From assembly GCA_015478665.1 (NCBI GenBank), contig JADMII010000010.1, positions 1-64,000 of the forward strand: a DNA stretch of 64,000 nt, in the 5' to 3' direction. Shown piece after piece: positions 1,871 through 31,461 of this stretch. The position numbers and the translations under genes were made by a program. The notes beneath the pieces were generated by a model. The model was not told the origin of the DNA, ran no database searches, and was given only the letters and a program-made list of their open reading frames with translations. The number at the start of each line of letters is the position of its first letter. Within the stretch, counting starts at the first letter, position 1. This DNA comes from Dehalococcoidia bacterium. Lineage in GTDB: Bacteria; Chloroflexota; Dehalococcoidia; DSTF01; JACRBR01.

Positions 1871-2215
1871 GCGGCCACGATCTGCAACGGGAACGTAAGG
1901 CGTCCGGCGCCCCTCGCGGCTGCGTCATCGGCTGCCGCATCTGCGCGCATCTGCGTCATCGAAGGTTCGTCTATCCCATGTTCATCCGTGCCCATCTGCG
2001 GGTGTCCCGTCGCGCGCGGCGCCGGCTGCCGGAGAGGTCCTTCGCTTGGCGCAAGATGACGTACGTCCAGATCCCTCATCCGCGTCCATCTGCCTCGGCG
2101 GCGTTCCCGAGCGGCGCGCAGCCTACCACCTCCGACCTCCATCACCGCGCGTCTGCGTCCATCCGCGTCATCCGCGGTTCCGCCACGCATGCATCCGCCG
2201 TACGCTGTCCGGGCG
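1871..2215. repeat. Intergenic stretch with degenerate CATCYGYG-type repeats
   Basis: No credible gene lies here. The stretch holds repeated variants of a short motif of the form CATCTGCG / CATCCGCGTC / CATCCGTGCC (near 1937, 1944, 1983, 1991, 2078, 2088, 2150, 2159). They are spaced irregularly and read in one orientation. Similar CATCYGTG-like intergenic repeats are familiar from other bacterial phyla, but assigning this one to a family is inference. The 3' end holds the likely promoter of the next gene, a TACGCT box at 2201-2206. Confidence 0.45.
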
Positions 2216-3409
2216 ATGGACGGACGTGAGCTGCGCGGCAGGGCTGCCATCAGCGGCCTCGGCATGAGCGAGATGGGGCGGGTGTACACGCGCGACGCCC
2301 GCGACTTCGCGGCCGAGGCGATCCGCCGCGCCGTCGAGGACGCCGGCCTGCGCAAGGAGCAGATCGATGGCCTGCTCGTCAATCCCGGCGTCACGCCGCT
2401 CGGGGCGATGGGCGGCGTCGGCCTGCAGAACGACCTCGGCCTCGCCAACCTGCGCCTGCTGGCGAGCATGAACGTCGGCGGCGCGACCGCGAACGTCATG
2501 GTGCAATACGCCGCGATGTCCGTCATCCACGGCCTCGCCAACCACGTCGTCTGCGTCTTCGCCGACGCGCCGCTGCGCACGAGCGCCGGCGGCGGAGGCG
2601 GCGCCGCGTACGCGGGCATGGGTCGCAGCGTGCGGCCCTCGGGCATGGCCGGGCTCTACACGACGTTCGGCGTGTTCGGCGTCAACGCCCATTATGCGCT
2701 GGCGACGCGCCGCCACATGGCCATGTACGGCACGACGAGCGACCAACTGGGCGTCATCGCCGTCGCCGAGCGGGCCTGGGCGCAGAAGAGCCCGCTCGCC
2801 GAACACCGGGAGGCGATGACGCTCGGTGATTACCGCGCGTCGCGCTGGGTCGTCGAGCCGCTGCACCTGCTCGACTGCTGCCTCGTCTCAAACGGCGGCG
2901 TCGCCGTCGTCGTTTCGCGCGCGGAAGAAGCGGCGGACCTCGCGCAGCCGCCGGCCTACATCCTCGGCATGGGCCAGGGGCACCCCGGCGACTTCCGGCG
3001 CAAGGGCTGGGACGTCGAGACGGAGACCGGCGCGCCGATCGCCCGGGAGCGCGCGTTCTCGATGGCCGGTGCCACGCTCGCCGACATCGACGTGCTGCAG
3101 CTGTACGACTGCTACACGTACACGGTGCTGGTGACGCTCGAGGACTACGGCTTCTGCAAGAAGGGCGAGGGCGGGCCCTTCGTCGCGGACGGCAAGCTCG
3201 GTCCGGGCGGCAGCCTGCCGACGAACACCGGCGGCGGCCAGCTGAGCGGGTACTACATGTGGGGCATGACGCCGCTGTCCGAGGGCGTGATCCAGGTGCG
3301 CGGCCAGGGCGGCGAGCGGCAGGTCGCGAAGCACGACGTCGTGCTCGTCACCGGCAACGGCGGCATCCTCGACCACCATTCGGCGCTGATCCTGGGGCGC
3401 GAGGCGTAG
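2216..3409 (+). CDS. Thiolase-superfamily protein (SCP-x/Ltp-like) lacking the usual nucleophilic Cys
   Basis: A 397-aa thiolase-fold protein of the lipid-transfer/acetyl-CoA acetyltransferase-like group. The N-terminal ELRGRAAISGLG, the ATANVMVQYAAM helix and the C-terminal LYDCYTYTV and LPTNTGGGQLSG blocks are typical. At the position where canonical thiolases carry the acyl-accepting cysteine, this protein reads NVGGAT (Ala90), so classical thiolysis is doubtful. Relatives without that Cys (Ltp2 paired with a DUF35 protein) act as retro-aldolases on steroid acyl-CoA; such a role here is inference. ATG 2216 is chosen over the upstream ATG at 2189 because the family homology begins there and a TACGCT box lies 9 nt upstream. 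A DUF35 partner follows. Confidence 0.85.
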   Translation: MDGRELRGRAAISGLGMSEMGRVYTRDARDFAAEAIRRAVEDAGLRKEQIDGLLVNPGVTPLGAMGGVGLQNDLGLANLRLLASMNVGGATANVMVQYAAMSVIHGLANHVVCVFADAPLRTSAGGGGGAAYAGMGRSVRPSGMAGLYTTFGVFGVNAHYALATRRHMAMYGTTSDQLGVIAVAERAWAQKSPLAEHREAMTLGDYRASRWVVEPLHLLDCCLVSNGGVAVVVSRAEEAADLAQPPAYILGMGQGHPGDFRRKGWDVETETGAPIARERAFSMAGATLADIDVLQLYDCYTYTVLVTLEDYGFCKKGEGGPFVADGKLGPGGSLPTNTGGGQLSGYYMWGMTPLSEGVIQVRGQGGERQVAKHDVVLVTGNGGILDHHSALILGREA

Positions 3410-3457
3410 CGCGTGATGCGCCGATCACCACCGGAGCGCGAAGGGAGGATGGGAACG

Positions 3458-3871
3458 ATGACCACTACGCCCCTGCCGGTCCCGGAGGCCGACGACGAGT
3501 CGCGCGAGTTCTACGACGGCGCGCGGCGTCATCAGCTGATGCTGATGCGCTGCCGATCCTGCGGCGCCTGGCGCCTGCCGTCGCGTCCCCGCTGCCCCGA
3601 CTGCTGGTCGACCGAAACCGAATGGGTGCGCGCCAGCGGCCGCGGCGTCCTGCACAGCTTCGGCATCATGCATCAGAAGCTGCATCCGGCGTTCGCCGAC
3701 CGAACGCCGTACCAGTTCGCCGTCGTCGAGCTCGCGGAGGGCCCGCGCATCGTCTCGCAGGTCGTCGGCGTCGCGGAGGACGAGCTGCGGCTCGAGATGC
3801 CGCTCCAGGCGGTATTCGACGACGTCAGCGACGATGCGACGGTCGTGCGCTTCGGGCCGCGCCGCTCGTGA
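3458..3871 (+). CDS. DUF35 Zn-ribbon/OB-fold protein, partner of the thiolase-like protein
   Basis: 137 residues with a rubredoxin-like zinc ribbon (Cys32, Cys35, Cys46, Cys49) followed by an OB-fold. Family members bind thiolase-like enzymes and acyl-CoA and are usually encoded beside them, as here. ATG 3458 is preferred because AAGGGAGG lies at 3441-3448, nine bases upstream; the ATG at 3449 sits directly on that site. The gene probably shares a transcript with the thiolase 48 bases upstream. Confidence 0.85.
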   Translation: MTTTPLPVPEADDESREFYDGARRHQLMLMRCRSCGAWRLPSRPRCPDCWSTETEWVRASGRGVLHSFGIMHQKLHPAFADRTPYQFAVVELAEGPRIVSQVVGVAEDELRLEMPLQAVFDDVSDDATVVRFGPRRS

Positions 3872-4122
3872 GCGGGAAGTTCGTCCGCGGCGGCCAGCGT
3901 CCGCCGGCGAAGCCTGCCACCGTGCTGCAGGCGCGCGCGTTCGAGCTGCACGGCACCCGCTACTACGCCGTGATCTACCGGCTCGACGCTGAGCCGGGCC
4001 AAGTGCGCGAGGCGCGGCTCTCGTTCGACATGATCTACGACGACCCGCAGCCCGGCGACCGCGTGCTCGTCGAATCGGTCCTCGGCGTCGTCGACCGGAT
4101 GGCGCGGGCAGAAGGGCGCTAA
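3868..4122 (+). CDS. Hypothetical 84-aa protein coupled to the DUF35 gene
   Basis: It starts at GTG 3868, whose last two bases form the TGA stop of the DUF35 gene, the overlap style used throughout this window. The product is small and soluble, with an acidic C-terminal half ending in DRVLVESVLGVVDRMARAEG. No family is recognised. The alternation of hydrophobic residues (RYYAVIYRL, DRVLVESVLG) suggests a small beta-rich fold. Its position as third gene of a thiolase/DUF35 operon points to an accessory role in that acyl-CoA reaction, which is inference. Its codon bias matches the neighbours. Confidence 0.6.
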   Translation: MSGKFVRGGQRPPAKPATVLQARAFELHGTRYYAVIYRLDAEPGQVREARLSFDMIYDDPQPGDRVLVESVLGVVDRMARAEGR

Positions 4123-5245: not shown

Positions 5246-6315
5246 CACGGCAGCCTCGCGCGGCTGTAGTCGCCCAGCACCAGCTCGTAGCCGTGCGGCT
5301 TGCGGCCGTCGCTGCGCAGCTCGACGTTCCGGCCGATCAGGCTGTTCTCGATGCGCGCCGGCAGCTGGGCAATCGTCGTGCCGTCCATCACGACGCTGCC
5401 GGCGATCTCGCTCTCGACGATCGTGCAGGCGGCGCCGATCGATGTGAACGGGCCGATGTAGGCGTCCCGCACCACGGTGCCCTCACCGATGATCGCCGGG
5501 CCGCTGATCACGCTGTTCGTGACCTCGCAGCCCGGCTGCAGCACGACGCGGCCGTGCAGCGTCGAGGCGCCCGATACGACGCCGCCCGAGCGGTCATCGG
5601 CGATCGTCTCGAGGATCGCGCGGTTGGCCGCCAGCAGGTCGTCGTGCTTGCCCGTGTCGATCCACTCACCCTCGACGACCTCGGCGCGCACCTCGCAGCC
5701 GTCGTCGATCAGCCGCTGGATCGTGTCGGTGATCTCGAGCTCGCCTCGCGCGGAGGGCACGAGCCGGTCGATCGCCTCGAAGACGCGCGTCGTGAACAGG
5801 TAGATGCCGATGACCGCGAGGTCGCTCGCCGGATGCTGCGGCTTCTCGACGACGCGCACCAGGCGCTCACCCTCGAACTGCGCGACGCCGAACGCGCGCG
5901 CGTCCGCCACATGTTTCATCAGGATCGCCGCCTGCGCGTCCGAAGCGACGAAGGCCTGCACCTGCGCGACGATCCCCTGCGTGAGGAAGTTGTCGCCGAG
6001 GAAGACGACGAACGGCGCCTCGCCGATCGCGTCGCGCGCGAGGCCGATCGCCTGCGCGATCCCTCCAGGCTGCGGCTGCTCAACGTAGCCGATGCGCGCT
6101 CCCCAGAGCGAGCCGTCGCCAACCGCGGCGCGCACCTGCTCGCCCGTCTCCGGCGACACGACGATCGTGATGTCGTCGATGCCGCACTCGCGCAGGTTGT
6201 CGATGGCGTGGAAGAGGATCGGCCGGTTGGCGATCGGTACGAGCTGCTTCGCGCCGGTGTAGGTGAGCGGCCGCAGGCGGCTGCCCTTGCCGCCGCTGAT
6301 CACGAGCCCCTTCAT
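5245..6315 (-). CDS. rfbA: Glucose-1-phosphate thymidylyltransferase, long form with C-terminal beta-helix
   Basis: This enzyme joins glucose-1-phosphate and dTTP to give dTDP-glucose. The nucleotide-binding signature GGKGSRLRPLT is at residues 8-18, with the sugar-binding LGDNF further on. The 356-aa length and a left-handed beta-helix tail (VISGPAIIGEGTVV, ESEIAGSVVMDGT) mark the long StrD-like form rather than the ~290-aa enterobacterial RmlA. ATG 6315 matches the family start; an in-frame ATG at 6327 would add four residues. No strong ribosome binding site precedes either. It is translationally coupled to rfbB. Confidence 0.93.
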   Translation of the reverse strand: MKGLVISGGKGSRLRPLTYTGAKQLVPIANRPILFHAIDNLRECGIDDITIVVSPETGEQVRAAVGDGSLWGARIGYVEQPQPGGIAQAIGLARDAIGEAPFVVFLGDNFLTQGIVAQVQAFVASDAQAAILMKHVADARAFGVAQFEGERLVRVVEKPQHPASDLAVIGIYLFTTRVFEAIDRLVPSARGELEITDTIQRLIDDGCEVRAEVVEGEWIDTGKHDDLLAANRAILETIADDRSGGVVSGASTLHGRVVLQPGCEVTNSVISGPAIIGEGTVVRDAYIGPFTSIGAACTIVESEIAGSVVMDGTTIAQLPARIENSLIGRNVELRSDGRKPHGYELVLGDYSRARLP

Positions 6316-6580
6316 CGCCGCCTTCATCGCGCCGATTCTAGCATCTGGCGCTGTGGTGGAGTGAAGGGCTCTGGAGCGACGTCTCGGCGGGAGGCGGCAC
6401 GGCTCTCGCGTATCGGCGGGCCGGCGGCAGTCGAACGAGCTCGAACCTCTGGCGGCCGAGGATGGCGCCGACTTGCTCGCACGGACATCGAGTCGCCCGA
6501 CCGCCGGAGATCGCCGAGGGCTGCCCATGCGATGATCCCCCGATCCCCCGCGTCGCCGGGAGGCATTTCGAAGCGCGCGA

Positions 6581-9500
6581 CTAACGAGCCGCCGCCGCCT
6601 GCGCGAGCTGCGCCTGCGGCACGACGTGCCAGATCTGCATCCCCGGGTTCTGGTACGAGAGTTCCAGCGCGCCATCGAGGCCGCTCTGGAACTTTGCCAT
6701 GCCACCGGGATAGTAGTTGCGCTCGACGGCGCCGACGATCACGTACTGCACGTTGTACTCGCGCAGGATCGCCCGCGCCTGGCCGACGTCCGACGTGTTG
6801 TAGAAGGTGTCGACATCCTGCTTGCGCTCGGCGACTCCGGCGGCGAAGCGCTGCCGCTGCTGCGTCTGGTGCCAGTCCCAGCCGAGCACGTCCGGCAGGC
6901 CGGTATAGATCGACACACGGCTCCCGTACCGGTAGATCGGCGTGATGCCCTCGATGATCGTCGGCGTCCCCTTCACCTGCGAGCGCATCCAGTTGATGCC
7001 GTCGCGGTCGTATTTGAGCACGTCTTCGCCGCCGAGGCCCGTACTCGGGTCGGCGTCGCGGTAGATCGTCTGATCCATGTACGCCATGCCGTTGTTGCCC
7101 GTGCCCTGCGCGGGGTTGAAGCGGTCGTGGACGCGCGCGCGGGTACCGAAGTACGGGAAGGCCAAGGCCAGCACCAGCAACCCTGCCGCCGCGGCGCCGA
7201 AGGCGTAGCGCGGCGTCCGCACGAGCCAGCCGTTGAGCTCGCCAGCGCGCCGAAGGAACGCCTCCTGCGGCTGCATGACGCCGACGACGTACCAGAGCGA
7301 GAATGCGCCGACGACGCCCCACAGCAGCCAGACATGCTCGTAAAACTTGAACACGGTGTTCATGCGACCGACGTCGCCGTCGAGGGTCAGCACCTCGACG
7401 CCGCCCGAGAGCCCGAGGCCGAGCGCGACCATGCCGTAGACGTACAGCATCGCCGGCGCCGTCGGCGTCGGGCTGCGCAGCTCGCGCCAGACGCAGAGCA
7501 GCACGGCGACGAGGCCGGCCGCGGCGAGCAGCGTGACGCCCCAGCGCTCGAGCGTCCCCGCCCAGATGATCGCCGCGCCGCCGGCGAGCAGCGCCAGCAT
7601 CACCGGCCGGCTGTCCGCCCTCCTGCGCCCGTGCCCGAAGAAGACGAGCCGGAGGCCGCGGCTGCGCGTGATCGCGCGGTTCAGTTGGAACAGCACGAGT
7701 CCGGCGACGAGGAAGAGCAGGATGCCGAACTGGCTCAGGTAATCGCCGAGCGCCGTCGTCTGGTCAGACTGATGGAAGCCGCTGTAGAACATGTTGTAGT
7801 TCTTGATCAGCGGCGCGAAGAAGACGTACGTCAGCATCGCCATCACCAGCGCCTTGAAGCCGCCGATGACGAGGACGCGCAGGCTCATCCGCCCTTCCTT
7901 CGCCCGCTCGCCGATGACCAGCGCGGCGGCGGCGAGCAGCAGGAACGGCGGGAAGTCCCACGAGTTGATCCAGCGCAGCGCGCCGACGATCAGCGCCAGC
8001 AACAGCACCATCAGCCAGCTCGTGACTTCACGCGCGCGCGGCCCGTCGCGGTTCAGGCGCGAGAAGTTCAGTACGGCGCCCAGCCCGACTGCCGCCGAGG
8101 TCAGCGCGAACGGGATCGCCATCAGGTGCGCGTGCAGGTCGGCGAAGAGGAAGGTCCAGAACGGGAACTCCGTGATCGGCTGCACTTCCTTCGTCGGGTC
8201 GACGACGCCGAGCGCGCGGCTCGGCGCCCACCAGTCGTAGCTGTAGACGAGCTGCCGGAACGAGGCATCGCCGAAGACCAGCGCCTTGAAGCCGCCTACG
8301 AACGCCACGATGCCGCCGAGCAGCGGCACGTTGGCGTGCCAGGGGCTGACGCGCGAGAAGTTCTGCTCGAGGATGCCCACCGCCCTCAGGTTGCCGGCGA
8401 TCAGCACGAGGAACACCGCCAGCACGCCGCACACGAGCGGCCCGCGGATGCTGATCGGCAGGCGCCCCGGCCGCCGACGCAGCAGCCGGCGTGTCGATTC
8501 GGCGAGGTTGTACGCGAGCGAGAACGTCGCCGCGCCGGCCAGCGCGAAGAACATCGGGATGATCAGGTTGTACGCGACTTCCGGCACGATGCCCGTGAGC
8601 TTCGTCACCGTCGCGGCGATGAACTGCCCGAAGTAGTAGTAGTTGAGATAGCCGCCCGCCTGCCACGGGTCGATCGGCCCTTGCGAGAGATCCGTCGTGC
8701 GGATGACGCCGTTCAGGTAGGCGAAGTCCATCGGCTTCTCGCCGCCGCGCGCGGGATGCCAGAGGTCCGGGTTCTGGAGCCGGATCCAGTAGGAGCCGAT
8801 GAAGAGCAGCAGGAAGAGCGCCTCACAGAAGAGCAGGAAACGCCACCGCTCCCGCACGAACGCCACGACCTCGCGCCGCCAGAACCAGCCCGTCGCGATG
8901 CCGACGAGCACCAGGAAGCCCAGCACGCCCGCGATCTCGCCGCGCGTGTAGTCGACGGCGCCGCGGCTCGCCGGCGCGTACGCCAGGTACGCGAGCGCCA
9001 GCACGCCGAGCGGCTTCGTCAGCAGGAAGCCGCGGTCCGGCAGGCCGCGGAAGACGACGATCGTCAGCGGCAGCAGCGAGAACGCCGCGACCTCGATCGC
9101 CAGCAGCCAGAAGATCAACGGGTGGTCGTTGATCACGTTGCCGGGCTGGAAGATCGATGACCAGGTGCCTCCCGCGGCCTGCTTCGCCGCCACCGCCGGC
9201 GTGAACTGCATCGCGTTCTGGCCGAGCTGACCGGGCAGCGCGGTGACGCCCGGCACGAAGGCGTCGGCGCCGAGCACCTGACGCGCCTTCGCTGCCGAGT
9301 AAGCGCTCGTCTTCTTGTAGATGATCACCTTCGGATGGTCGTACACCGTGTACGACTCCTCCGCGCCCGTGTCGTTCAGCTTGATGCCGAAGAGCTCCGG
9401 GTACGAGTTGAACTCGGCGACCTTCCGGAAGCCGAGGGAGCCATCGGCGAGCGCCGCGTAGTAGCGCGAGGTGACGGGCCAGGCCGCCGGCACGCGCGTC

Positions 9501-11311
9501 ACCGTCTCCGACACGCGCCCGCTGGCGAGCGCGATGTAGTCGACCTGGTCGATGTTGCTCAACAGCTGCTGCACGCGCTGCGGCGTGTCCGGGCTGAAGT
9601 TGTCGAAGGTGACGGACCCGTAGTTCCTCGGCGTTGCGCCGCCGACCTCGTACGGGACGACGTCGTCCCACGACTCGTGGCCGATCACGCTGCCTGCGGG
9701 CACGTTCTGGTAGATCCAGCGCGACGCGTCGGCGCGCGTCACCGGCTGGCTGTAGATGTGATAGAAGGCGAGCCCCATGAACAGCGTCATCAGCACGACG
9801 ACGCTGACGCCGGCGCCCACGGCGTACGGCAGAGCCGGCCGGAGCGGCGCCAGCCTCGACCGCAGGCGCCCGATTGCGGCGAACGGCTCCCGGCTGTTCG
9901 ACCACTGCCACGCGCTCCACAGCAGCACGGCGGCGAGCACGGTCAGCGTCGGGTAGAGCGGCAGGAAGTAGCGCATGTAGAGCGAGAACTGCGCCCCCAT
10001 GAAGCCGAAGTACCCCAGCACCCAGGCCAGCGGCACCAGCCAGACGCCCTGCCGCGTGCGGAACGCCAGGGCGATGGCGAACAGCACACCGAGCCACGCC
10101 GTGATGCCCAGCGCCGGCCCCATCCCCCAGCTCACCATCTGCTGCAGCGGCCAGACCCACTTCGAGCGGCCGATCCACTGCACGTCCGGCGGGAAGGCGG
10201 CGTTACCGCTCAGCAGCCGCTGCTGGTCGACCTCGTCCTTCAACCACTGCTGGTTCATGATGTCCGGGTAGGGCACCGGCAGCGGCCCGATGCTCCCCAG
10301 ATGCCAGGCGAACAGCTGGCCGATCGCCGGCGTATTGAAGGCGTACGGCATCGCGATGCGGAAGGCGACGAACGCCGATACGAGCGCGATGAGCGAGCCG
10401 AGCACGAAGGTACCGACCGACGCGTCGAGCCGCCGGCCGTCCTGCTGCCGGGCGTACGCCGACGAGCGGCCGTACCACCACGGCGCGACGTACGGCTTCA
10501 CGCCCGGCCAGGCGTAGACGCCGATCGCCAGCACGATCACCGGCAGCAGCGACACGGCGGTGATCTTGGTCGCCGCCGCCAGACCGGCGCTGACGCCGGC
10601 CAGCGCGAAGTCGCGCTTCCGCCCACGTTTCGCCGATCTGACCGCGAAGAGGATCGCCGCTGTGGCGAAGAACGTCACGTAGGGGTCGACGACGAAGAAG
10701 TGCGCGTTCTGTATGGGAAAGGCGGAGGCGGCGTAGAGGAAGGCGGCGAGGAGGCCGGCGTTCCGGCTCAGCAGCTCGCGGCCGAGAAGGAAGACGAGCA
10801 AGGTCGTCGCCAGGTCGAAGAGGGCCGACAGCGCGCGGCCGCTGAGGTTGTAGCCGTCGTAGTTGTCCTTGTTGTCGACCATGCCGAGCGTCAGCGTCTG
10901 CAGGTGCGACGCGAAGAACTTGTTCATGAACAGCGGCAGCGTGCCGTAGACGAACGTCGGCTGCTTCGAGCCGTCGGCGTTGCGGATGTTGTAGGGGTTC
11001 AGCGCGGACGTCTTCGTATCGAAGTAGTTGGCGACGCTGCTGGGGGCGCGGGTGCTGGCGCTGATCTGCGTCAGGAAGCGCTCGTCCGGATGGAGATGGC
11101 CGCTGACGCCGTTGCCGTTGTTGTCCCAGTTGATGCCGTTCAGCCGCAGGAAGCCGGCGAACACCAGGATGCCCACCAGCGCGGCCAGGGCGAGCCAGCG
11201 CGCCCGGTCGCCGCTCAGCGCGTCGAGCCTGGGCCGGGCGAATGGGCGCCGCGACGCTGCCGCACGGGTCGCGCCGGAAGGATCGTGCAGCGGGGAGGTC
11301 TGTTCACTCAT
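6581..11311 (-). CDS. Giant membrane protein: GT-C glycosyltransferase fused to DUF2298 (Chlor_Arch_YYY) domain
   Basis: 1,576 residues with roughly two dozen predicted membrane segments. The first ~600 residues resemble GT39/ArnT-like lipid-linked sugar transferases, with the acidic catalytic-type motif HPDERFL near residue 74 in the first periplasmic loop. After a soluble region (~residues 600-730) a second membrane half follows with the diagnostic NYYYFG motif near residue 888, the hallmark of the DUF2298 family of Chloroflexota and archaea. The start is ATG 11311; upstream in-frame sequence is low-complexity. Likely role: transfer of sugars from polyprenyl carriers to surface polymers, which fits the dTDP-sugar genes downstream. 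Donor and acceptor are unknown. Confidence 0.85.
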   Translation of the reverse strand: MSEQTSPLHDPSGATRAAASRRPFARPRLDALSGDRARWLALAALVGILVFAGFLRLNGINWDNNGNGVSGHLHPDERFLTQISASTRAPSSVANYFDTKTSALNPYNIRNADGSKQPTFVYGTLPLFMNKFFASHLQTLTLGMVDNKDNYDGYNLSGRALSALFDLATTLLVFLLGRELLSRNAGLLAAFLYAASAFPIQNAHFFVVDPYVTFFATAAILFAVRSAKRGRKRDFALAGVSAGLAAATKITAVSLLPVIVLAIGVYAWPGVKPYVAPWWYGRSSAYARQQDGRRLDASVGTFVLGSLIALVSAFVAFRIAMPYAFNTPAIGQLFAWHLGSIGPLPVPYPDIMNQQWLKDEVDQQRLLSGNAAFPPDVQWIGRSKWVWPLQQMVSWGMGPALGITAWLGVLFAIALAFRTRQGVWLVPLAWVLGYFGFMGAQFSLYMRYFLPLYPTLTVLAAVLLWSAWQWSNSREPFAAIGRLRSRLAPLRPALPYAVGAGVSVVVLMTLFMGLAFYHIYSQPVTRADASRWIYQNVPAGSVIGHESWDDVVPYEVGGATPRNYGSVTFDNFSPDTPQRVQQLLSNIDQVDYIALASGRVSETVTRVPAAWPVTSRYYAALADGSLGFRKVAEFNSYPELFGIKLNDTGAEESYTVYDHPKVIIYKKTSAYSAAKARQVLGADAFVPGVTALPGQLGQNAMQFTPAVAAKQAAGGTWSSIFQPGNVINDHPLIFWLLAIEVAAFSLLPLTIVVFRGLPDRGFLLTKPLGVLALAYLAYAPASRGAVDYTRGEIAGVLGFLVLVGIATGWFWRREVVAFVRERWRFLLFCEALFLLLFIGSYWIRLQNPDLWHPARGGEKPMDFAYLNGVIRTTDLSQGPIDPWQAGGYLNYYYFGQFIAATVTKLTGIVPEVAYNLIIPMFFALAGAATFSLAYNLAESTRRLLRRRPGRLPISIRGPLVCGVLAVFLVLIAGNLRAVGILEQNFSRVSPWHANVPLLGGIVAFVGGFKALVFGDASFRQLVYSYDWWAPSRALGVVDPTKEVQPITEFPFWTFLFADLHAHLMAIPFALTSAAVGLGAVLNFSRLNRDGPRAREVTSWLMVLLLALIVGALRWINSWDFPPFLLLAAAALVIGERAKEGRMSLRVLVIGGFKALVMAMLTYVFFAPLIKNYNMFYSGFHQSDQTTALGDYLSQFGILLFLVAGLVLFQLNRAITRSRGLRLVFFGHGRRRADSRPVMLALLAGGAAIIWAGTLERWGVTLLAAAGLVAVLLCVWRELRSPTPTAPAMLYVYGMVALGLGLSGGVEVLTLDGDVGRMNTVFKFYEHVWLLWGVVGAFSLWYVVGVMQPQEAFLRRAGELNGWLVRTPRYAFGAAAAGLLVLALAFPYFGTRARVHDRFNPAQGTGNNGMAYMDQTIYRDADPSTGLGGEDVLKYDRDGINWMRSQVKGTPTIIEGITPIYRYGSRVSIYTGLPDVLGWDWHQTQQRQRFAAGVAERKQDVDTFYNTSDVGQARAILREYNVQYVIVGAVERNYYPGGMAKFQSGLDGALELSYQNPGMQIWHVVPQAQLAQAAAAR

Positions 11312-29899: not shown

Positions 29900-31048
29900 C
29901 TACGCCCGCTCGTCGTTTGTGAGGATCAGCGTGCCGGCGGCGTGGAACATGCCACCGACGCCGTGCGCGATGCTCGTCCGCACGCCGGGCAGCTGGTTCG
30001 CCGCTTCGCCGCGCAGCTGCCGCACGGACTCCTGAATGGCAAACATCCCGTACATGCCCGTGTGCGTGTAGCTGAGGCCGCCGCCGTTCGTGTTCAGCGG
30101 GAAGTCGCCGCCCGGCGCCGTCCGCATCTCCTCGAAGAACGGACCGCTCTCACCCTTGCCGACGAAGCCGAGCGCCTCGAGCGCGAACATCGGCGTGTGG
30201 GCGAAGGCGTCATAGAACATCGCGTGGTCGATGTCGCTGCGCTCGATGCCGGCTTCAGCGAAGGCGGAAGCGCCGGAGACCTTGAAGGCGCGCGACTCCG
30301 TGAAGTCGTGCATCTGGCTGATCATCGAGTGCTCCGACGACTCTCCCGTCCCGAGCACGTACACGGGCTTCTTCGGGAAGTCCTTGGCCCGCTCCGCCGA
30401 GACCACCACGAGGGCGCCGCCGCCGTCGGTGACGAGGCAGCATTCCAGCAGATGGAACGGGTAGGCGATGATCCGCGAGTTCAGCACGTCGTCGACCGTG
30501 ATCGGCTCGCGCATCATCGCCCGCGGGTTGGTCTCCGCCCAGCGTCGCGTCGCGACGGCGACGGACGCCAGCTGTTCGTGCGTCGTGCCGTACTCGTGCA
30601 TGTGCCGCAGGAAGGGGAGCGTGAAGCGCGTCGGCGGCCCGGCGACGCCGTACGGCGACTCGAACTGCGAGCCCAGCATCTGCGGCGACTGCCCGAAGCC
30701 GCCCATGCCGACGCGCGAGCGGCCGCTCTCGCCGTGCGTCACCAGCGCGGTCGTGCAGAGCCCGGCGGCGATGGCCGCGGCGGCGTGCCGCACGTGGATC
30801 ATGAATGAGCAGCCGCCCACCGACGTGCCGTCGATGTAGGTCGGGGTGATGCCGAGGTACTCGGCCACCGCCACCGGCGACTGGCCGGCGCAGAGGACGC
30901 CGTCGATGTCGTCCTTCGTCAGGCCGGCATCCGCGAGCGCCGCCCGCGCCGCCTCCGCGTGCAACTCGATCGCCGACTTGTCCGGGATGACCCCGACCAT
31001 CTCCGTCTCGCGCGCGCCGACGATCGCGGCGCTCATGCGCAGGCTCAC
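29900..31048 (-). CDS. Thiolase-family protein (SCP-x/acetyl-CoA acetyltransferase-like) with active-site Cys
   Basis: 382 residues of the lipid-transfer/thiolase group. Unlike the gene at 2216, a cysteine is present in the expected place (GTSVGGCSF, Cys80). The later YDAFAHTPMF and the LNTNGGGLSYTHTG block correspond to the C-terminal catalytic loops. Its start overlaps the stop of the DUF35 gene by four bases, so the order here is DUF35 then thiolase, the reverse of the first pair. Fatty-acid or steroid-type acyl-CoA degradation is likely; the substrate is unknown. Confidence 0.85.
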   Translation of the reverse strand: MSLRMSAAIVGARETEMVGVIPDKSAIELHAEAARAALADAGLTKDDIDGVLCAGQSPVAVAEYLGITPTYIDGTSVGGCSFMIHVRHAAAAIAAGLCTTALVTHGESGRSRVGMGGFGQSPQMLGSQFESPYGVAGPPTRFTLPFLRHMHEYGTTHEQLASVAVATRRWAETNPRAMMREPITVDDVLNSRIIAYPFHLLECCLVTDGGGALVVVSAERAKDFPKKPVYVLGTGESSEHSMISQMHDFTESRAFKVSGASAFAEAGIERSDIDHAMFYDAFAHTPMFALEALGFVGKGESGPFFEEMRTAPGGDFPLNTNGGGLSYTHTGMYGMFAIQESVRQLRGEAANQLPGVRTSIAHGVGGMFHAAGTLILTNDERA

Positions 31049-31461
31049 GGCGCACCCCCGCTCGGCTCGAAGAGCGGCAGCGTGATCTCGTCGCTCTGCC
31101 GCTCCCAGGTCACCTGCAGCGGCAAGTCGATCGGCAGGTTCTCGGGCTTCGGCTCGACGCCGACGATGTTCGTCATCATCCGCGGTCCCTCTTCCAGCTC
31201 GACGACGGCGATGACGTAGGGCACGTCGTCCTTGAAGCCGGGCGCCGGACGGTGGCTGATCACGTACGAGTAGAGGCGCGCCTTGCCGCTCGCCGTGAAC
31301 CAGCCGACGTCGTCGCTGGCGCAGCGGGGGCAGAAGGGGCGGGGGAAGAAGTACGCGCGGCCGCAGGCGTTGCAGCGCTGGAGGCGCAGCTCGTGGCGCC
31401 GGGCGCCGTCCCAGAACTCCTGCGTCTCAGGCGTCGGCTGCGGCAACGGTCGCTTGGGCAT
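31045..31461 (-). CDS. DUF35 Zn-ribbon/OB-fold protein, partner of the second thiolase
   Basis: 138 residues with zinc ribbon Cys30, Cys33, Cys44, Cys47 followed by an OB-fold. It is paralogous to the protein at 3458 (shared EFWDGARRHEL N-terminus) and expected to bind the thiolase encoded next. ATG 31461 lies seven bases after a GATACT -10-like box, so the mRNA may be leaderless. A 9-bp inverted repeat brackets that box and touches the start codon. Confidence 0.85.
   Translation of the reverse strand: MPKRPLPQPTPETQEFWDGARRHELRLQRCNACGRAYFFPRPFCPRCASDDVGWFTASGKARLYSYVISHRPAPGFKDDVPYVIAVVELEEGPRMMTNIVGVEPKPENLPIDLPLQVTWERQSDEITLPLFEPSGGAP

Follow-up and report, generated by a model that had tools for sequence, protein, structure and literature searches.

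Introduction

Two bacterial aldolases that cleave steroid side chains combine a thiolase-fold protein with a DUF35 partner. In TcLtp2-ChsH2, the steroid C17 side-chain aldolase solved as 6OK1, the DUF35 protein has a C4 zinc ribbon and a fused hydratase domain. In CtSal-CtShy, the bile-acid side-chain aldolase of Comamonas testosteroni (9MYR), the DUF35 domain of CtShy has a C3H1 zinc finger and is fused to MaoC (PMC12329534, cited throughout from excerpts of the paper). These excerpts report Tyr302 and Cys304 of the YDCY motif as catalytic in CtSal and Tyr294 and Tyr344 as catalytic in TcLtp2, place Gln352 of CtSal where TcLtp2 has Tyr344, and propose that the two enzymes carry out reactions of one kind with different general acids (PMC12329534). 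A third system, the benzoylsuccinyl-CoA thiolase BbsAB, also consists of a thiolase and a DUF35 protein. Its operon includes the BbsEF coenzyme A (CoA) transferases. Here we describe a gene pair of this general type, P0001-P0002, and an adjoining gene for an 84-residue protein, P0003, in a 64,000-nt stretch of DNA from a Dehalococcoidia bacterium of the phylum Chloroflexota, referred to below as the window. The window is part of contig C30 of a 2.67-Mb genome that is 98.9% complete.

Judged by its sequence, P0001-P0002 seems related to the bacterial steroid side-chain-cleaving enzymes, with blended catalytic residues. Our favored reading, of moderate confidence, is that the pair is a retro-aldolase of acyl-CoAs from a new clade, whose active site is a hybrid of Sal and Ltp2, and that P0003 was recruited in a few lineages and is unneeded by most. 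The literature searches made here found no paper on a Chloroflexota member of the P0001 clade or on the 84-residue family, a negative limited to these searches. The features of the locus are as follows:

2216..3409, plus strand: thiolase-like protein P0001, 397 amino acids, the proposed catalytic subunit, with Y297, C299 and Y347 as proposed catalytic residues (Thiolase_C_1 match at 1.1e-45; PDB matches; residue conservation)
3443..3448, plus strand: GGGAGG, which probably serves the DUF35 gene as ribosome-binding site (direct sequence reading)
3458..3871, plus strand: standalone DUF35 partner P0002, C4 zinc ribbon and OB fold (OB_ChsH2_C match at 4.8e-20, zf-ChsH2 at 2.2e-11; PDB matches)
3868..3871, plus strand: GTGA, 4-bp overlap in which the GTG start of the P0003 gene lies on the TGA stop of the DUF35 gene
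3868..4122, plus strand: 84-residue protein P0003, GTG start, OB-like barrel by prediction, K[FW]VRGGxRP tail at the N terminus

The three open reading frames (ORFs), their order and the overlap at the DUF35 stop agree with the original prediction, a model's reading of the bare sequence. The ORFs are taken as real genes because homologues of all three occur in other genomes. An alternative start of P0001 is possible at 2189. The DUF35 gene could begin at ATG 3449 or ATG 3458, of which the latter is better placed after GGAGG.

Catalytic residues of P0001

Among solved structures, P0001 scores best against 4u4e (1.6e-63), 6ok1 (TcLtp2, 3.3e-60) and 9myr (CtSal, 1.3e-48, with indels in the alignment), and P0002 against the DUF35 chains 9myr_B (1.3e-21) and 6ok1_B (1.4e-21). 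The comparison with Ltp2-DUF35 aldolases that was first drawn from the bare sequence is thus borne out for both proteins. In the pairwise alignment with CtSal, Y297-D-C299-Y of P0001 aligns with the Tyr302/Cys304 dyad, and Q342 corresponds to Gln347 of the CtSal GGQ motif. The alignment with TcLtp2 is ungapped through the catalytic region and equates Y297 and Y347 with Tyr294 and Tyr344. The equivalence of Y347 and CtSal Gln352 spans a 3-residue gap and follows the published comparison (PMC12329534, excerpts). On these alignments P0001 carries the Sal dyad plus the Ltp2 acid, a hybrid residue set.

P0001 matches at E<=1e-120 are present in 84 of the 393 genomes of the class. After 13 same-gene duplicates were dropped, the orthologue alignment comprises P0001 and 40 others (55-84% identity to P0001), giving 41 rows from 41 of the 84 genomes. 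Y297, D298, C299, Y347, G89 and H388 are invariant in all 41 rows, and the NTGGG loop is also strictly conserved. A tree built by a quick method places the 41 orthologues in one group with support 100, apart from the paralogues. Across the phylum there are 11 matches at E<=1e-100, six of them outside the class and all six in one genus.

The nucleophile loop of P0001 reads NVGGAT (residues 86-91) and is free of cysteine, as originally predicted; no row has Cys at positions 88-91, and two of the 41 have it at position 87. Three paralogues in the same genome serve for comparison. That on contig C10 reads GGSSF and YDSF, a second in the window reads GGCSF and YDAF, and that on contig C27 is true-thiolase-like, with NACATG, HDCF and GHP. 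The genome has four thiolase-DUF35 pairs in all, and the second pair of the window is arranged as follows:

29921..31042, minus strand: paralogous thiolase-like protein with GGCSF and YDAF, for comparison (sequence)
31045..31461, minus strand: DUF35 partner of this paralogue, upstream of it, in the opposite gene order to P0001-P0002

The Cys in the C27 motif sits on column 88 rather than 90, so the nucleophile position can be placed only to within one or two residues; none of the candidate positions holds a Cys in P0001. The histidines of the HDCF and GHP motifs, present in the C27 protein, are both Tyr in P0001 (Y297 and Y347). The original prediction contrasted P0001 with the second window thiolase as keeping its cysteine, which holds for GGCSF, but with YDAF that paralogue lacks the other active-site Cys. 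It also called P0001 Cys-less, which is accurate for the loop and fails for the active site as a whole: a wholly Cys-free active site is rejected, as C299 matches Cys304, a catalytic residue of CtSal, in the alignment. A cysteine elsewhere in the active site had been named in advance as counter-evidence; C299 is such a residue, yet the same aldol chemistry is indicated.

P0001-P0002 belongs to neither the Sal nor the Ltp2 type, because one defining residue of each is replaced: Tyr347 stands in place of CtSal Gln352 and Cys299 in place of His296 in TcLtp2 YDHF, both in 41 of 41 rows. The DUF35-domain partner common to both types is present, to judge from the domain matches of the neighboring gene P0002. 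SCP2-type and biosynthetic thiolases have a nucleophilic Cys in the N-terminal half and the HDCF and GHP histidines, which P0001 lacks. The solved relative 4u4e, which we take to be from Sphaerobacter thermophilus, has a GGSSF nucleophile loop and reads YDSFTYTV where P0001 reads YDCYTYTV. BbsAB scores much lower (7pxp, with 6e-23 and 4.1e-8 for thiolase and DUF35, respectively) and differs from the window pair in that P0001 has no nucleophilic Cys and the transferases lie outside the window operon.

The DUF35 partner and conservation of the pair

P0002 is a 140-residue protein with the motif C-x2-C-x10-C-x2-C. It shares the C4 zinc ribbon with ChsH2, in contrast to the C3H1 finger of CtShy, and it is a separate protein without the fused hydratase domain of ChsH2 or the MaoC domain of CtShy. 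The pairing is widely kept: of 29 thiolase loci outside the genome of the window, 26 show a DUF35 match inside the stretch retrieved. In the remaining three (L058, L060 and L070), the contig ends 928 bases past the thiolase (L058), the DUF35 gene is on another contig than the thiolase (L060, genome G070) or DUF35 lies further away, in the wider stretch L107 (L070).

In two loci of family f23 (L122:7476-7889 and L124:6502-6903) the DUF35 protein has lost most or all of its zinc-ribbon Cys, reading FPSADH... in place of the first CxxC, and keeps its pairing with the thiolase. A small gene between thiolase and DUF35 in G169 (L062) presumably resembles MmcQ/YjbR proteins, as, we assume, does a gene downstream of the thiolase in G070 (L104:6002-6391), where thiolase and DUF35 are parted.

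CoA-transferase genes beside the pair

Next to the pair, and on its strand, lie two genes for type III CoA-transferases in L114, L115 (with a small intervening ORF), L116, L122 and L124, five loci that represent three other families. This arrangement, which the related loci share with BbsAB, suggests but does not prove that the pair works on CoA-activated acids. All six transferases scanned, from three loci, match CoA-transferase models below the curated cut-offs. Same-cluster ORFs were listed in 11 loci; those in the six beyond the five are mostly further off, and some may be in the wrong frame. In L123 an enoyl-CoA-hydratase-like gene lies directly 3' of DUF35, and genes that we take to be acyl-CoA-dehydrogenase-like are nearby.

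Genes in the related loci were called with a custom GC-based ORF picker, and some of its ORFs are in the wrong frame. It took a wrong-strand ORF over the L114 thiolase, which tblastn finds there, and it missed most genes of L119 and an amidase-like gene of L214 that is seen by direct translation.

The genome of the window has 13 CoA_transf_3 matches. Among all 13, the closest copies of the two L116 transferases lie on contig C26 (57% and 46% identity; next best 38% and 37%), and the C26 cluster also holds a FabK-like gene with 53% identity to the L116 neighbor. This cluster (L214, C26:70000-84000, at 5332-11090 of that stretch), a FabK/nitronate-monooxygenase-like gene plus two CoA-transferase genes, is the genome's closest match to the L116 operon. 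Its genes lie around a gene that we take to be amidase-like. The same contig has a KshA_C match of the 3-ketosteroid 9-alpha-hydroxylase type (L203, C26:6520-7101, 138 bits); being circumstantial and the sole marker looked for, it says little on a steroid pathway. For marine SAR202 Chloroflexi, the breakdown of recalcitrant carbon has been proposed to run via CoA-linked pathways with many CoA-transferases, according to excerpts of that study (PMC5395668).

Proposed reaction and alternative explanations

We infer complex formation, chemistry and direction of the reaction as follows. P0001 and P0002 would assemble into a thiolase-fold/DUF35 complex, an alpha-beta-beta-alpha heterotetramer if the analogy holds, which would cleave, or possibly form, a C-C bond in an acyl-CoA by aldol chemistry rather than thiolysis. 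Tyr297 would take the proton of the beta-hydroxyl group, the C-C bond would then break, and Cys299 and/or Tyr347 would protonate the resulting acyl-CoA enolate.

Several points weigh against the retro-aldolase reading or its details. The identity of P0001 to the characterized aldolases is low, and 4u4e, a solved 'thiolase', scores slightly above 6ok1 and 9myr. The 3-residue gap in the CtSal alignment falls directly before the Y347 region, and the 41 rows differ at position 342 (22 Q, 17 E, 2 M). The predicted model of P0001, built from three sequences, has a predicted local distance difference test score (pLDDT) of 28 and was left unused for residue geometry. P0002 has no match to a MaoC hydratase and no such fusion to its DUF35 domain. 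The CoA-transferases of the window's genome are not beside P0001-P0002, and the neighbors of the window operon point to no pathway. P0003 is rarely linked to the pair, and its profile bears no relation to the DUF35 family (hhalign probability 0.12% and 0.05%); P0003 as a duplicated DUF35 OB domain is rejected, as no profile similarity is detectable.

A Claisen-type or acyl-transfer enzyme, with C299 acting in decarboxylative condensation or acyl transfer along the lines of PhlABC and other DUF35-associated acylases, is an improbable alternative to aldol cleavage. It draws on the invariance of C299, on the alignment of this residue with the Cys of HDCF in the true-thiolase paralogue on C27, on PhlC and BbsB as distant relatives of P0001, and on the several chemistries with which DUF35 is found (PMC12329534, excerpts). 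It is opposed by the missing nucleophilic Cys, by the two Tyr in place of the thiolase histidines, which are residues used by both proven aldolases, and by the scores of PhlC and BbsB, far below those of Ltp2 and Sal. A non-catalytic pair that binds or carries CoA esters is less probable still: the thiolase nucleophile is lost and 'lipid-transfer protein' is the name of several related NCBIfam models, but strict conservation of Y297, D298, C299, Y347, NTGGG and H388 is unusual for a mere binder, and the TcLtp2 entry bears a lipid-transfer name yet is an aldolase.

The 84-residue protein

P0003 belongs to a Chloroflexota-wide family that extends well beyond the operon and is attached to the operon of the pair in only a few lineages. 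Its sequence has no match in Pfam or NCBIfam and no significant sequence match in PDB; the only PDB match of its profile, TrwF at E 2.7, is taken as chance. A model built from 23 sequences has five strands and a mean pLDDT of 88.6, with low confidence for the first ten residues (block mean 50). Foldseek returns no match to this model at E<=0.001 (best 0.046, DUF2500 3q6c). VIA-align gives Z scores of 8.6 (3rd4), 8.0 (3q6c) and 6.5-7.8 for the other listed chains; the PriB, SSB and cold-shock OB folds are near Z 7, and the Ltp2-associated DUF35 chain 6ok1_D is at rank 50 with 6.5. A Z under 8 may reflect a mere common arrangement, and 'OB-like' is therefore a reading, not proof. Pfam S1-like matches three of 41 family members weakly (best E 0.036), which points in the same direction. 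P0003 is thus predicted to be an OB-like small barrel. Members of the family have about 70 amino acids and the core YELHGTRYY...ARLSHDM.Y.DPQPGD.V. The N-terminal K[FW]VRGGxRP tail is present in 6 of 6 members in the family of the window and, as delimited here, in 0 of 43 other homologues in the class.

Homologues occur in 49 of the 393 class genomes (E<=0.01), and on this ground a chance ORF is rejected. At the level of the phylum, the P0003 profile has matches in 32 of 301 genomes, of which 30 belong to other classes. In named records the family has 24 loci, all Chloroflexi, Chloroflexota or Dehalococcoidia, including two cultured species. None of 18 P0003 stretches from other Chloroflexota classes has a thiolase or DUF35 relative of the pair.

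Within the class, 20 genomes have both P0001 and P0003, an association with an odds ratio of 3.0 (p 0.001), or 2.1 (p 0.04) when the family of the window is excluded, by a statistic that ignores relatedness. The two genes lie within 2 kb in 6 of the 84 thiolase genomes (G000, G137, G231, G016, G169 and G031). They are on different contigs in 13 of the 20, although in these mostly draft genomes such genes might still be close near contig ends, and 64 of the 84 have no P0003 homologue at E<=0.01. DUF35 adjoins the P0003 homologue in 7 of 49 class genomes, with some stretches ending at contig edges. In G234 the P0003 match is at a contig edge, was not recovered by tblastn and has its upstream side beyond the contig. 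A weak DUF35 match about 2.1 kb from the homologue in L099 (E 0.007, 81 bases) is taken as chance. P0003 as an obligate partner of the pair is rejected, given the rare linkage in the class and the pair-free copies in the phylum.

Linkage is concentrated in the family of the window (f1), where six of eight genomes have the P0003 gene, in all six adjacent to DUF35 and across four genera; the two without it are 72% and 84% complete. In G070 P0003 follows DUF35 while the thiolase is on another contig. In five of the seven linked loci the end of the DUF35 gene and the start of the P0003 gene share 4 or 1 bp; in the others the two genes are about 120 and 29 bp apart, the larger spacer being in one member of the family of the window. 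A second linked case, in family f34, lacks the tail. A test of the linked f34 and f1 copies as one clade gives an approximately unbiased p value (p-AU) of 0.37 with a long branch, so one origin and two are not distinguished. P0003 became linked to DUF35 in f1 and, perhaps as a separate event, in f34.

P0003 may be a free-standing barrel that in the family of the window acts either as a local accessory of DUF35 or as a co-expressed passenger. The passenger reading, with P0003 as an independent small protein placed downstream by chance and expressed through the overlap, has about an even chance of being right. The varied neighbors of solo copies in class and phylum, which point to no common function, and the family member that keeps the longer spacer speak for it; the persistence of P0003 beside DUF35 across four genera and the family-specific tail speak against it. 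A third subunit or assembly factor where linked, with barrel and tail binding either DUF35 or the substrate at its CoA end, is possible though doubtful. The consistent DUF35 adjacency, even in G070, the short overlaps, the tail confined to one family and the tail-less second case in f34 favor this role. Against it stand the many thiolase genomes without a homologue or with the genes on different contigs and the occurrence of P0003 in the phylum without the pair. Moreover, common ancestry links the six family members, and the tree leaves the independence of f34 unsettled. We lean to the co-expressed passenger over the subunit, although a lineage-specific accessory role is possible because the family of the window has both DUF35 coupling and a conserved tail.

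The original prediction that the 84-residue protein is a new subunit of such pairs is therefore mostly unsupported, with thiolase linkage in 6 of 84 genomes, DUF35 adjacency in 7 of 49 and pair-free copies in all 18 stretches from other classes. The co-occurrence check that it proposed yields no general linkage and does reveal tight DUF35 coupling in the family of the window. A broader proposal, which we consider unlikely as a whole, is that the pair is a third kind of thiolase-fold aldolase across Chloroflexota, with the Sal Tyr-Cys and the Ltp2 Tyr and with substrates activated by CoA-transferases, and that in one family it is a three-component system whose OB-like protein would dock on DUF35 via the K[FW]VRGGxRP tail.

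Other features of the loci

Among the solo copies, a gene that we take to be truncated-haemoglobin-like lies upstream, in opposite orientation, next to or near the 84-residue homologue in eight loci of family f5:

Family f5 loci with the haemoglobin-like neighbor: L044, L045, L048, L051, L086, L090, L094, L101

A presumably PurU-like gene lies downstream of the homologue in six of these eight loci.

In the window, the gene upstream of P0001 is presumably isoleucyl-tRNA-synthetase-like, with P0001-P0002-P0003 as a three-gene plus-strand unit downstream of it, and the next gene after P0003, on the minus strand, is, we assume, sugar-nucleotide dehydratase-like. Before the thiolase gene, window positions 1915-2190 hold imperfect repeats of the type catctgcgtcatccgcggttc. 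When at most 2 mismatches are allowed, CGTCATCYGCGGTT has 7 copies in the window against 1.6 expected, and none of 100 shuffles reached 7; the only exact copy is at 2166.

Significance

A family that keeps both the Sal and the Ltp2 acids would allow single-mutation tests of active-site conversion. The nearest NCBIfam models of the P0001 family are named acetyltransferase, thiolase or lipid-transfer protein, and the aldolase reading suggests a function for this family in the 84 of 393 class genomes in which it occurs.

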